64,000 nucleotides of DNA, from assembly GCF_031501865.1 (NCBI RefSeq), contig NZ_JARRCW010000001.1:1757001-1821000 (forward strand), given 5' to 3'. Below, in pieces: positions 59,669-63,704 of the stretch. Below the pieces are notes generated by a model. That model was not told where the DNA came from. It ran no database searches and saw only the letters and a list, made by a program, of their open reading frames with translations. The translations under genes and the position numbers were made by a program. Origin of the DNA: Pseudovibrio sp. M1P-2-3. GTDB lineage: Bacteria; Pseudomonadota; Alphaproteobacteria; Rhizobiales; Stappiaceae. Within the stretch, counting starts at the first letter, position 1; every line of letters begins with the position of its first letter.

Positions 59669-60523
59669 ATGCATAAGGATAGACCAATTGCGGTGATTGC
59701 TGGTGGCGGATCGCTTCCGGCGCAAGTGATTGAAGCCATCTTGAATACTGGTCGGCATGTTATCACAATTGCAATCAAAGGGGAGGCGGATGCCTCCCTT
59801 TCCTCTTATGATCCCGTAGAGTTGGGATGGGGTCAAATTGGCAAGCTCTTTGATACGGTTCACAAAGCCGGAGCGCAGGAGATTGTTTTAATCGGCTCGG
59901 TTCAGCGGCGTCCTGACTTTACATCCGTTTTAGGTGACTGGGGAACCATGCGCCGCTTACCTCGCATTCTTGCGGCACTGGTTGGCGGGGATGACAGCCT
60001 TTTGGTGAAGGTGATGGGTATTTTCGAGCAGGAGGGCTTGAAGATCGTAGGAGCTCATGAAGTTGCTCCAGCTTTACTGGCAAAGCCGGGTCTTATGGCC
60101 GGCCCAAAACTAAAAGAACAAGATCTGGCCGATATCAGGCAATGCGCGGAAGCTATTGAAAAGCTGGGCGCTTTGGATATTGGGCAGGGCTGTGTTGCGG
60201 TGAATGGCCGTATTATTGCAGTTGAGGGGGCGGAAGGTACGGATGCCATGCTGCTTCGCTGCGTGGAACTTCGCCAGAACGGGCGCGTGCGGACCAAAGG
60301 GAATGCTGGTGTTCTGGTGAAGTGTGCCAAGCCCGGACAGGATTTAAGGGTGGACCTGCCAACTGTGGGGCCGCAGACTATTCGCAATGCGGTCAGTGCA
60401 AGGCTAAATGGAATTGCTGTGGAGGAGGGGAACGTGCTTATCGCGGAGCGTGGGCTCACTGAAGCTTTGTGCATTGAGCATGGAATTTTCTTCTACGGAT
60501 TACCCAAGGGTAGCGGGAGTTAG
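59669..60523 (+). CDS. lpxI: LpxI, UDP-2,3-diacylglucosamine pyrophosphatase
   Basis: 284 residues of the DUF1009/LpxI family: N-terminal PIAVIAGGGSLPAQVI, middle GSVQRRPDFTS and DDSLLVKVMGIFEQEG, and C-terminal VKCAKPGQDLRVDLPTVG. It hydrolyses UDP-2,3-diacylglucosamine to lipid X, replacing LpxH, as is normal in alphaproteobacteria. It lies between lpxA and lpxB, four bases before the lpxB start. Confidence 0.96.
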   Translation: MHKDRPIAVIAGGGSLPAQVIEAILNTGRHVITIAIKGEADASLSSYDPVELGWGQIGKLFDTVHKAGAQEIVLIGSVQRRPDFTSVLGDWGTMRRLPRILAALVGGDDSLLVKVMGIFEQEGLKIVGAHEVAPALLAKPGLMAGPKLKEQDLADIRQCAEAIEKLGALDIGQGCVAVNGRIIAVEGAEGTDAMLLRCVELRQNGRVRTKGNAGVLVKCAKPGQDLRVDLPTVGPQTIRNAVSARLNGIAVEEGNVLIAERGLTEALCIEHGIFFYGLPKGSGS

Positions 60524-60527
60524 TCGT

Positions 60528-61709
60528 TTGACACGCAAAAAGTCGCCTTCAATCTACTTTGTCGTTGGTGAGGAGTCTGGTGACCAGCTAGGTGCCGAGC
60601 TAATAAAGGCTTTGAAAGAGCAACTCGGTGCCTCTCTCACGGTATATGGAGTTGGCGGGGAGCGGATGGCGGCCCAAGGTGTTTCCAGCCTGTTTCCTCT
60701 TGAAGACATTTCTGTAATGGGAATTTCTGCTGTGCTGGCGCGTTTACCCAAAATTGTGCGGCGGGTCTATCAGTGCGTTGATGACGTGATTGCCAAGGAT
60801 CCTGATCTTCTGGTGATTATTGATAGCCCCGATTTCACGCATAGCGTGGCCAAGCGTGTTAGAAAAAAAGCTCCCCATATTAAGGTTGTCGATTATGTCT
60901 CCCCCAGTGTGTGGGCATGGAGACCGGGGCGGGCTAAGAAAATGGCAGCCTATGTGGATCAATTGCTAGCCTTATTGCCCTTTGAGCCGAATGTTCACAG
61001 GAAGCTTGGCGGACCGGCAACCACTTATGTTGGGCACCCGCTTATAGAACGATTGCACAATTTGCGTCCGAAGGAAGGGGAAAGGGCACCTTTAGAAGAG
61101 GGGGCACGTAAACTCCTGATATTGCCTGGAAGCCGGGGGAGTGAAGTCTCGCGCCTATTGCAGCCGTTTGGTGAAATCGCCGCAAATGTTGTAAGGGCAT
61201 ATCCGGATGTTGAGCTTATTATACCGGCTGTTCCCCATCAACGGGAACGAATTTTGGAAGGGGTCAGCAAATGGAAAATCAAGCCGGTTATTGTTGAAGG
61301 CGAACAGGCCAAGTTTAAGGCTTTTCGAGAGGCCCATGCAGCATTGGCCGCAAGTGGAACGGTGACGCTGGAGCTGGCTATCGCAGGAGTACCGACAATT
61401 GTTGCCTATAAACTGGACTGGTTCTTTAGAAGGCTGAAAGACATTCACCGCTTTATTCCGATTGCCTCAATAGATTCCATGGTGCTGCCAAACATTATTC
61501 TGGCGAGCAAGGTCATGCCGGAGTTTTTGGATGATGATGTGAACGCCAACACCCTAGCGCCTTTGGTTGTCGAGCTTTTGGCAGATAGCGGTTCCCGGCA
61601 AGATCAGCTTCAGGGCTTTTCGAAGCTTGATGAGGCCATGCGACTTGCTGATGGTCAGAGTCAGGCGGGTAAAGCCGCTGAAGTTGTGATGGGACTTATT
61701 GAAAGTTGA
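60528..61709 (+). CDS. lpxB: Lipid A disaccharide synthase
   Basis: 393 residues from a TTG with GGAG about nine bases upstream. The open frame continues back into lpxI, but family alignment (SIYFVVGEESGDQLGAELI) puts the start here. It has the glycosyltransferase family 19 segments VWAWRPGR near residue 125, LPFEP and LLILPGSRGSEVSRL near residue 190. It joins lipid X and UDP-diacylglucosamine. The last 14 bases overlap the 3' end of the convergent PLP enzyme gene. Confidence 0.95.
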   Translation: MTRKKSPSIYFVVGEESGDQLGAELIKALKEQLGASLTVYGVGGERMAAQGVSSLFPLEDISVMGISAVLARLPKIVRRVYQCVDDVIAKDPDLLVIIDSPDFTHSVAKRVRKKAPHIKVVDYVSPSVWAWRPGRAKKMAAYVDQLLALLPFEPNVHRKLGGPATTYVGHPLIERLHNLRPKEGERAPLEEGARKLLILPGSRGSEVSRLLQPFGEIAANVVRAYPDVELIIPAVPHQRERILEGVSKWKIKPVIVEGEQAKFKAFREAHAALAASGTVTLELAIAGVPTIVAYKLDWFFRRLKDIHRFIPIASIDSMVLPNIILASKVMPEFLDDDVNANTLAPLVVELLADSGSRQDQLQGFSKLDEAMRLADGQSQAGKAAEVVMGLIES

Positions 61710-62727
61710 TGACCTCTATAAGGGTTTCAGGCTGGTCATAGGCGGCTGGAAATAGTTTGAAGCAGTTGGTATATCCAGCGAGCTTTCCGTAGCTTAGTGC
61801 GGGAATGGAAAAGCTTGTGAGGCGGTTCACAATTGGGTCCGGTTCCATTTTCGCTGTTTCAACAACCAGAAAATCGCAGGAGCTGGGGTGTGGCAGGAGA
61901 GGGGACTGGGTACCTATCATCTGAGCTGTCGCCTCCCTCATTGCAGTAAGGGTTTTTGTTAGTTTCTCCAGTTTCGCATAGTTTTCAAAAAGTGATAGGG
62001 CAGCGCATGCTTGCAGCGTACTTATGGATTCCGAAATGCGACTATCCAGATAATCCTCCTTTTGGTCTTTATGCAAGATTGCGTAGGCAAAACCCAGACC
62101 CGGCAACCCCTGCTTGGATGTGCCGCGTAATAAGATTAGGTTGGGATACCTACTGATTAGTTCAATGCGCTTATCAGGGTTTTTAGCGAAGAGCGCATAG
62201 GATTCGTCCATTATTACCGGAGTATCACTTGCCTCAAGAAGTTCTGTGAGCTCGGCGTCTTCAAGATCTTTTGAAGTGGGGTTGTTCGGCGCACTTAATA
62301 TAGCACAGGTACAGGCTTTCTTAGGTTTTCGCAGGGCCGTACTCATGCCTGTCAGCGCCGTATACTGCTGGAAGTTGGCATCTAGCTTTTGGGAAATAAG
62401 TCCATAGAGAAAGAACTCGTTGTGCAATGTGTGGATGGACAGATTGGAGCCGAATGATAAAAAGAACTGTTCGGCCAGTTGTGTAACACTGTGTCCAAAG
62501 ACTAAATCGCAATGGGGCGGTAAGCCGTGGACGGTTCTTGCCGCTTCTCTGGCCTGTTCCTTCGCCTCACAGGCGTGCAGCCTCAGATCACAGGTCAGCA
62601 TATTGTTAAGAATGGTTGTTTGCAGGCTTTGCAGATTCTGTTGCAGGGAGGCTGGCCAAGCAAACAAGTGCTGAGAATCGCGTAGGAAAGCATCTACTCT
62701 GAAAGGCGACTTGGAAGCTGAAATCAT
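61696..62727 (-). CDS. Divergent fold-type I PLP-dependent aminotransferase-like enzyme
   Basis: 343 residues with class I/II aminotransferase (HisC/CobD-like) landmarks: FGHSVTQL near residue 77, PNNPT at 147-151, the PLP Asp in VIMDES (Asp174) and the PLP Lys in GTSKQG (Lys205). The C-terminal Arg that normally binds the substrate carboxylate is not apparent; the region reads NCFKLFPAAYD. The substrate may therefore be unusual. It starts 14 bases after the GRDP-like gene and is the last gene of a four-gene operon. It could be a decarboxylase or aminotransferase; the reaction is unknown. Its 3' end overlaps lpxB by 14 bases. Confidence 0.75.
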   Translation of the reverse strand: MISASKSPFRVDAFLRDSQHLFAWPASLQQNLQSLQTTILNNMLTCDLRLHACEAKEQAREAARTVHGLPPHCDLVFGHSVTQLAEQFFLSFGSNLSIHTLHNEFFLYGLISQKLDANFQQYTALTGMSTALRKPKKACTCAILSAPNNPTSKDLEDAELTELLEASDTPVIMDESYALFAKNPDKRIELISRYPNLILLRGTSKQGLPGLGFAYAILHKDQKEDYLDSRISESISTLQACAALSLFENYAKLEKLTKTLTAMREATAQMIGTQSPLLPHPSSCDFLVVETAKMEPDPIVNRLTSFSIPALSYGKLAGYTNCFKLFPAAYDQPETLIEVINFQ

Positions 62728-62741
62728 ATAAACGGATACCC

Positions 62742-63083
62742 TTATTCAGGGGAAATAGGCTCGTGGTGCAAATAATGACCGAAAATGCGATCACAATCCC
62801 CCATGTATTTTCGGGTGAAGAGAATATGGGTATGCCAGAGGATATCTACCTCTCTTGAAGGAGGGGCGAGAGAGGGGCGATCCTGTGATCCGCACTTCCT
62901 TAGGTATGCGCGGGCGTCAAAGAGGTACGATCGATAGACTTCGATCAACTCTTGAGTTTCATCAACCGGCCAATCATAGCCGCCATCTTCGAAGGAAGCG
63001 GTGACCTTTTTAAGAATGGGACTTAAGTCCAGAGTTGCAATTGGGTCATCGCAACTCTCACCATTACTTTGATTTTCAAACAT
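62742..63083 (-). CDS. Short glycine-rich-domain-protein-like (GRDP/PF07173-type) protein
   Basis: 113 residues from the ATG at 63083; a TTG start at 63164 would overlap the upstream peptide gene and adds no family sequence. It begins around LDLSPILKKV and contains the family core EVDILWHTHILFTRKY (Asp80, Trp83-His84-x-His86, Thr90, Tyr93) and the ending CDRIFGHYLHHEP (His103, His106, His107). This matches my memory of the short bacterial GRDP-like proteins. The His-rich core could bind metal. Function is not known. It lies between a small peptide gene and a PLP enzyme. Confidence 0.72.
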   Translation of the reverse strand: MFENQSNGESCDDPIATLDLSPILKKVTASFEDGGYDWPVDETQELIEVYRSYLFDARAYLRKCGSQDRPSLAPPSREVDILWHTHILFTRKYMGDCDRIFGHYLHHEPISPE

Positions 63084-63121
63084 TAACTCGCCTGATCCGC
63101 TTTTATGACCTTTAGCGTTTT

Positions 63122-63238
63122 CTATGAGCCTTTTGGAAGACGGGGGGCAGGTCCTATCAGACAAAACTTCTTGGTTGAAGCACTCTTACAAGCTTTCAGG
63201 CTGTGACTCTTCAGATGCTTTTGGAGAAGATTGGACAT
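63122..63238 (-). CDS. 38-residue basic Cys-containing peptide, candidate precursor peptide
   Basis: A frame of 38 codons starting MSNLLQKHLKSHSLKACKS and ending PRLPKGS, with AAGGA upstream of the ATG. It has eight Lys, one Arg, two His and two Cys (in ACKS and FCLIGPAP). The N-terminal half looks helical and amphipathic and the C-terminal part is Pro/Gly-rich, the outline of a leader and core of a ribosomally made, modified peptide. It sits 19 bases after the secreted-protein gene and 38 bases before the GRDP-like gene, all on one strand. Without relatives for comparison it could still be a chance frame. Confidence 0.45.
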   Translation of the reverse strand: MSNLLQKHLKSHSLKACKSASTKKFCLIGPAPRLPKGS

Positions 63239-63257
63239 CCTTTTGTTTCCTTTTTGT

Positions 63258-63704
63258 TTAGTTTTTGAAGTTCACTTTGCCGCGGCACGTTCCATCAGAA
63301 AACACACCAACACTATCGTCCATGCCGGTTAGCCCAATTGCCCACATCTGTGCGACAACTTGTGCTTCGCCCTCATTTGCAAAGACGATTTCATAGGTAT
63401 TGTGAACTGCGAAGACCCCACCGTCTTCTTCTGTTTCGGATTCGGCTATTACAAAGTTATGGCCCTTGTCAGTTGTCCTGTGATTGGGCTTATTGTTGGG
63501 GTGCGGCGTTGTTGTGTAGCCCCCTCCATACCTTTTTTGGCAAATGCTTGCATCTCCCCCTGGTTTCACAGTTGTCAGGTCTGAGAAGGAGAACGTGCGT
63601 TCTTTGGAAGCCGCGTCAGTTGCGGTGTCCGCAAACGCAACGAGCCCGCTTGGCACGATTAGGGCAGAGGAAAGTGCAATTGTGGTGAAGATCTTGCCAA
63701 TCAT
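63258..63704 (-). CDS. Small secreted protein of unknown function
   Basis: 148 residues from the ATG giving MIGKIFTTIALSSALIV; the frame extends upstream but only the signal peptide start makes sense. A Sec signal peptide ends near residue 25 (VAFA). The mature part is about 123 residues, rich in Thr, Gly and Asp, with just two Cys (SICQKRYGGG near 56 and DGTCRGKV near 140) that could form one disulfide. I do not recognise the family. It is the first gene of the minus-strand group that includes the peptide, GRDP-like protein and PLP enzyme. Confidence 0.7.
   Translation of the reverse strand: MIGKIFTTIALSSALIVPSGLVAFADTATDAASKERTFSFSDLTTVKPGGDASICQKRYGGGYTTTPHPNNKPNHRTTDKGHNFVIAESETEEDGGVFAVHNTYEIVFANEGEAQVVAQMWAIGLTGMDDSVGVFSDGTCRGKVNFKN

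Follow-up and report, generated by a model that had tools for sequence, protein, structure and literature searches.

Cys precursors are the substrates of MNIO enzymes, and part of the TIGR04222 tails have been proposed to serve likewise; TIGR04222 genes are reported without an MNIO gene in 490 of 1,372 genomes (PMC12452194). The main text of that paper treats TIGR04222, and GRDP, DUF1399, and PF07173 are absent from it. The accessible part of a paper matched for Pseudovibrio and ribosomally synthesized and post-translationally modified peptides (RiPPs) describes MNIO/DUF2063 pairs and not the cluster considered here (PMC12538549), and another literature search on RiPPs gave no match. In plants, overexpression and mutants of GRDP genes alter growth and stress response; AtGRDP2, whose function is there described as unknown, has a Gly-rich C-terminal region interspersed with Cys (consensus [CG]GGGCGG[GC]; PMC4299439). 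No title on bacterial GRDP function was present among the literature matches listed for GRDP-like, DUF1399, and PF07173. Here we describe a four-gene cluster that encodes a GRDP-like protein and a 38-residue Cys peptide in Pseudovibrio sp. M1P-2-3, of the same genus as Pseudovibrio axinellae (G007) and P. japonicus (G014). The cluster lies at C1:1818.7-1820.7 kb of a 4.96-Mb genome, within the 64,000-nucleotide stretch C1:1757001-1821000 that was analysed as a whole (the window). It is a real cluster and very probably a peptide system, and the rule that it follows, a GRDP-like domain together with a Cys peptide in cis or in trans, is general and is new among the literature matches listed.

The four frames run head to tail on the minus strand in the order secreted protein, peptide, GRDP-like protein, and pyridoxal 5'-phosphate (PLP) enzyme, with gaps of 19, 38, and 14 bases. 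Coordinates include stop codons, and the secreted frame is counted from an internal ATG:

63258..63704, minus strand: secreted protein of 148 residues; the start reads like a signal peptide; conserved Cys pair
63122..63238, minus strand: Cys peptide of 38 residues, MSNLLQKHLKSHSLKACKSASTKKFCLIGPAPRLPKGS; a purine-rich stretch lies directly before the ATG
62742..63083, minus strand: GRDP-like protein of 113 residues; weak PF07173 match; proposed Cys-peptide maturation or handling domain
61696..62727, minus strand: fold-type-I PLP enzyme (aminotransferase class I/II) of 343 residues; PF00155 match at 2.6e-11

An earlier note, made from the letters alone, had described this arrangement, and its coordinates agree with ours, as do its reading of the first frame as a signal-peptide protein and of the second as a Lys-rich peptide with two Cys (we count 7 Lys and 2 Cys). 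Its suggestion of a peptide-modifying or peptide-secreting system stands in part: a peptide system is well supported, but what constantly accompanies the peptide is the GRDP-like protein rather than the PLP enzyme, and the coupling of the secreted gene is loose. We keep chemical modification or secretion of the window peptide as a hypothesis.

By profile, the window protein falls in the same domain family as the plant proteins AtGRDP1 and AtGRDP2, and the AtGRDP2 tail is also Gly-rich with Cys. However, AtGRDP2 has 787 residues, whereas the window protein is a bare domain of 113, which leaves no room for the middle and tail regions described for AtGRDP2, and its Cys segment is a separate gene. 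The match to PF07173 (13.7 bits, E 0.1) does not reach the cut-off of 22.7 bits; because homologues found with the same profile do exceed it (26.6 bits for L143, 25.8 bits for L193), we count the window protein as a divergent relative and not as a scored member.

In MNIO systems (bufferins, methanobactins, and TIGR04222), as at this locus, a partner gene adjoins the gene of a short Cys precursor, and the Cys/Gly/Ser tails of these systems resemble those of membrane-form GRDPs. However, no MNIO gene was found beside the window precursor, and the sole MNIO (PF05114) match of the genome, at C1:533924, is far from the window cluster. Among 30 of the GRDP-positive genomes, 12 had no MNIO match; in the other 18, several of which are split into many contigs, no MNIO match shares a contig with a GRDP at a distance of 50 kb or less, the nearest distances being about 55 to 67 kb (G014, G007, and G757). 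The MNIO operon of the window genome (L208:3491-6113, C1 ~533.5-536.1 kb) reads as bufferin-type, with a Cys precursor, MNIO, and DUF2063-like and DoxX-like genes. It lies about 9 kb from a second GRDP copy, with genes reading as glutamate synthase in between, and we regard this nearness as probably chance.

Bacteriocins and RiPPs with GG leaders and peptidase-containing ATP-binding cassette (ABC) transporters are the other close comparison. A gammaproteobacterial locus (L114, genome G754) resembles such systems: it encodes three peptides whose ...(D/E)NISGG leaders precede FCxELCxEFCLSxCFE cores (CxxxC), together with an HlyD protein (2.9e-12), an ABC exporter that includes a C39 peptidase domain (1.5e-38), and two GRDPs. 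Between the precursors and the exporter, no other same-strand open reading frame (ORF) of at least 60 residues reads as a modifying enzyme. In contrast, the window cluster has no exporter or protease, and its candidate maturase is GRDP-like. The RiPP-type trait of a short precursor gene kept beside a candidate maturase is found here, as the peptide precedes the GRDP gene in several genera; we infer that this partner is the maturase.

The rule shows in the C-termini of GRDP proteins, most of which are Cys-bearing tails. Merging 166 profile matches by identical last 90 residues gave 109 distinct relatives, and in 90 of them a Cys lies C-terminal to the GRDP-like domain. Tail repeats include PAMCGGM (L058/L143), TAYCAGPHIGK and AFCAGPH (L084/L115), PAYCAR (L138), AALCVPS (L073), and CLRE (L153); other proteins end in SAICSR, PAMCIS, or SAMACA, and membrane-form GRDPs have SGCGGCGD-like ends. 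Among the 100 GRDPs with a tail of at least 25 residues, shorter tails being excluded, 74 carry two or more Cys within their final 40 residues; for the remaining ORFs at these loci, which were called mechanically and include some false frames, the figure is 74 of 611 (Fisher 1e-36). For at least one Cys the counts are 87 of 100 and 244 of 611, and when 50%-identity clusters are counted instead, 28 of 41 have two Cys or more (Fisher 3e-15). One protein (L098:394-1851, minus strand) combines a GRDP domain, TIGR04222 (8.1e-40), and a Cys/Gly/Ser tail; this fusion was seen in one of six other GRDP proteins scanned, and the window GRDP gave no NCBIfam match.

Where the tail is missing, a separate peptide is often nearby. 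Under a rule requiring 30 to 75 residues, an ATG, a purine-rich stretch, and a position within 150 nt on the same strand, a short Cys ORF accompanied 11 of 20 tailless GRDPs (L135 counted among them despite one Cys in its C-terminal stretch), compared to 11 of 89 tailed ones (Fisher 1e-4) and 37 of 285 control genes (3e-5). Peptides at L118 and L136 escaped the rule, and the tailless L152 and L216 adjoin a Cys-tailed paralogue.

The neighbourhood of the window peptide also recurs. A genome of another genus in the same family (G068) has the secreted, peptide, GRDP, and PLP genes in this order at the same site between lpxB-like and gltA-like genes, with peptide MKNLLKLYQQANRFPHDINQADSKALCYGGHCVVHIDPSAEVETADRKTSEKK; names of housekeeping genes such as these were assigned by reading, without a profile or database match. 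A Nisaea metagenome-assembled genome (MAG; L048) has the peptide, with a PAICYIP end, followed by the GRDP and PLP genes. The gene order in relatives, which the earlier note had offered as a check, is thus recovered, and the peptide frame is intact where the GRDP and PLP genes are kept, a Cys peptide lying just upstream in both genomes. The window genome itself carries a second, minimal copy at C1:524.7 kb, a stand-alone pair of peptide (...PVCWGCWHRIAP...) and GRDP. Peptide and GRDP genes are likewise paired in a gammaproteobacterial MAG (L049, ...ASCWPWIAAKAC), and in the alphaproteobacteria L118/L119 (= L053/L054) the GRDP is preceded by peptides ending AFCGKLCMP(M/L)R(S/N). In Pseudomonas savastanoi and Halomonas, plasmid-borne peptides with the C-termini GGGGHCQGGGGW and GGGHCQGGGSW are followed by a GRDP and then by membrane proteins of 438 and 442 residues, which are 27% identical to each other (2e-33) and one of which has a weak MatE match below the cut-off. 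Because the gene order recurs in other genera, the four-gene arrangement is more than chance; because the peptide, GRDP, and PLP order recurs in G068 and the Nisaea MAG and a second copy stands alone, the 38-residue frame very probably represents a gene. Its C26 (FCLIGP) aligns with a Cys in each of the two nearest counterparts.

Two later samples agree with this. The first, collected once the idea had taken shape, comprised 13 of 34 plasmid records, taken for taxonomic spread, and one phage record, all picked before their tails were seen; the plasmid rows left out were already in the set, were more strains of the same genera, or were fragmented Pseudomonas amygdali/phaseolicola rows. A Cys tail is present in 10 of these 14, with AAWCSLE repeats in Variovorax and AYCAR repeats in another Cupriavidus (L194 is counted as tailless, and the bare rule gives 11 of 14 with a Cys after the domain). 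Three of the four without a tail have a short Cys peptide upstream, recognized by eye and in two cases below the rule length: Piscirickettsia EVAACMANCSGNCQS, Maritalea MKKVKVKTSKKAEARRCEPGP, and Macrococcoides MAFELCIGEVADEKVTPQEGN. The fourth, from Vibrio, adjoins a transposase gene. In the second sample, the 15 new of 23 rows (L217 being doubtful), 13 of 15 proteins from the order have a Cys within the last 40 residues. On the Maritalea plasmid (L194:4379-6467) the peptide and GRDP genes are followed by a transporter-like and then a sulfotransferase-like gene, for neither of which Pfam gave a family at E ≤ 0.01.

The domain itself is strongly conserved. Across 45 cluster representatives (window numbering), near-fixed positions are D80 (44), W83 (44), H84 (43), T/S90 (41), Y93 (45), C97 (41), G102 (43), H106 (41), H107 (44), and P109 (42). 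An AlphaFold2 (AF2) model from 8 sequences is all-helical (pLDDT 81, pTM 0.75) and places D80 and H84 in helix 77-89 with roughly one turn between them and C97 in helix 93-101, which H106 and H107 follow; these residues may meet in one site. The best VIA row, 8a0m (Z 3.7, rmsd 4.5 over 76 residues), was not used as a fold relative, and PDB sequence matches of the GRDP profile at E 0.042 and 0.3 were taken as chance. No PHROGs family was matched at E ≤ 0.01 by the window GRDP or by six GRDPs from phages or viral contigs. Two viral contigs (L112:3968-4192 and L113:3797-4138) encode short GRDPs with the tails DGYCATDLEK and GKYCFGETE; the genes preceding them read as mutually related, and on L113 a terminase-like gene follows soon after. 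In several small alphaproteobacterial genomes (L149, L150, L143, L147, and L052), a Cys-tailed GRDP adjoins a gene whose N-terminal part resembles a helix-turn-helix repressor, and some of these genes have a methyltransferase domain behind that part.

We propose that the window cluster belongs to a widespread system of two parts, a GRDP-like domain and a short Cys segment, and represents its in-trans form, a reading for which we see about an even chance. In most relatives the Cys segment is the C-terminal tail of the GRDP protein, and in the window it is the separate peptide. Once translated, the peptide would be bound by the GRDP-like protein, its N-terminal part serving for recognition and its C-terminal part being centred on C26. 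The peptide Cys may then be modified or loaded, probably at the polar site of D80, H84, C97, and H107, and the PLP enzyme would tailor the product. Gene order, conservation, and the cis/trans pattern are observed; binding, catalysis, and this order of steps we infer. Only tentatively do we extend the proposal to the whole family, in which the GRDP-like (DUF1399) domain would be an unrecognised Cys-modifying enzyme of bacteria, phages, and perhaps plants, acting on its own tail or on a separate peptide; the resulting ribosomal peptide products would form a new class, and the domain would account for some TIGR04222-type tails in genomes without MNIO.

The domain could instead be a scaffold or leader that presents the Cys segment to an enzyme encoded elsewhere (MNIO or a methyltransferase) or to a membrane site, which we think unlikely but worth serious consideration. 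Methyltransferase domains are the most frequent GRDP neighbours among the first 25 families listed (3 of 50 and 7 of 58 ORFs, raw counts not set against a background; Azospirillum ramasamyi, for example, has GRDP, methyltransferase, and TauD-type dioxygenase genes in succession), and the fusion with TIGR04222, in part a proposed MNIO substrate (PMC12452194), also suits a scaffold. However, the absence or distance of MNIO genes in the 30 genomes argues against it, the near-fixed D, H, C, and H are atypical of a plain docking domain, and at L114 the GRDPs stand alone between precursors and exporter. Improbable, in our view, is a metal module in which the GRDP, together with its Cys tail or peptide, holds metal for storage, sensing, or redox without covalent change: the Cys/Gly-rich tails and the conserved His, Cys, and Asp resemble ligands, but a ligand cluster does not sit well with single-Cys tails (such as SAICSR and PAMCIS) or with GG-leader precursors that have a C39 exporter of their own. 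On the basis of the near-fixed residues, the AF2 model, and a fold search without a match, we rank a Cys-directed enzyme or loader above a scaffold and a scaffold above a metal module.

Several observations weigh against our proposal. Foldseek with the GRDP model gave no match at E ≤ 0.001, hence no fold hint at chemistry, although a missing fold relative proves nothing either way. The cis/trans pattern was noticed in the same set that supplied the first counts, and two of the 11 rule-based peptide matches (L118 'down' and L145) look spurious by eye; without these and the window, 8 of 19 tailless GRDPs remain against 37 of 285 control genes (Fisher 0.003). L151, L102-L104, L223, and L145 have neither a tail Cys nor a credible peptide. 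The peptides are barely alignable: in 3 of 10 pairs, fewer than 50 of 1,000 shuffles scored as high (window/second copy 5, G068/Nisaea 17, and G068/gammaproteobacterial MAG 48). Finally, P. axinellae and P. japonicus carry secreted and GRDP genes elsewhere in the genome with no adjoining peptide or PLP gene. This last point favours the view that the 38-residue frame is a chance ORF in an operon of secreted, GRDP, and PLP genes, as does the fact that the same rule finds some nearby short Cys ORF at 37 of the 285 control genes. We nevertheless consider a chance ORF very unlikely, given a Cys frame at the same place in other genera, the stand-alone pair in the same genome, and Cys tails in cis elsewhere.

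The PLP enzyme appears to be accessory, and that it tailors the peptide is a guess from gene position. Like HisC and CobD it is of fold type I and keeps the PLP-binding Lys (K205) and Asp (D174), but it scores far below their cut-offs (67.5 bits with HisC, TIGR01141, cut-off 276.55; 57.9 bits with CobD, TIGR01140, cut-off 290.55). Aligned with the HisC of its own genome, it has Lys324 for the C-terminal substrate Arg and Gly212 for the GLxGLR Arg, both changes being shared by the G068 enzyme. The earlier note had anticipated the kept Lys and Asp and the lost substrate Arg, and its peptide-modification idea would have failed with tight grouping among HisC or CobD proteins; in our tree, the window and G068 enzymes group together with 100/100 support, and a long branch lies between this pair and the HisC and CobC proteins of the same and related genomes. 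HisC-like and CobC-like genes are present elsewhere in the genome. The Nisaea enzyme (183 bits with the HisC model, below 276.55) is also on a long branch, and we are unsure of its placement, as the three cluster enzymes are jointly supported at only 66/62. Either an accessory enzyme has been recruited repeatedly, or the cluster enzymes have strongly diverged. As a query against the genome contigs, the window enzyme found no relative, and among 87 genomes of the family a near-full-length match to the PLP profile occurs only in G000 and G068.

The secreted gene is a loosely coupled neighbour of the peptide and GRDP genes, because its family, which is expanded in Pseudovibrio and matched in 12 of the 87 genomes with up to 10 copies each, occurs in eight of those 12 without a GRDP match (G002, G003, G004, G005, G006, G009, G010, and G015). 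The conserved Cys pair of the protein is C55 and C140 (the latter in SDGTCRG). Its AF2 model is mainly beta (pLDDT 65) and had no PDB match at E ≤ 0.001. The cluster is flanked by genes reading as lpxB and gltA, and at its 3' end the PLP gene runs 14 bases into the lpxB-like frame (60408-61709, plus strand); a promoter and terminator scan gave signals at shuffle level. In the two genomes examined for it, G010 and P. japonicus, the site between the gltA-like and lpxB-like genes holds tandem arrays of the secreted family (L189:6839-10827 and L190:6462-9471), and a gene reading like an acetyltransferase sits among the tandem copies.

The cis/trans pattern leads to a concrete hypothesis, namely, that the GRDP-like domain works on a Cys in a flexible peptide. 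If true, bacteria and phages would yield a further, new group of peptide products, and TIGR04222-type tails in genomes without MNIO would have a candidate explanation. The hypothesis would also provide a testable biochemical idea for the biology of GRDP proteins in plants.

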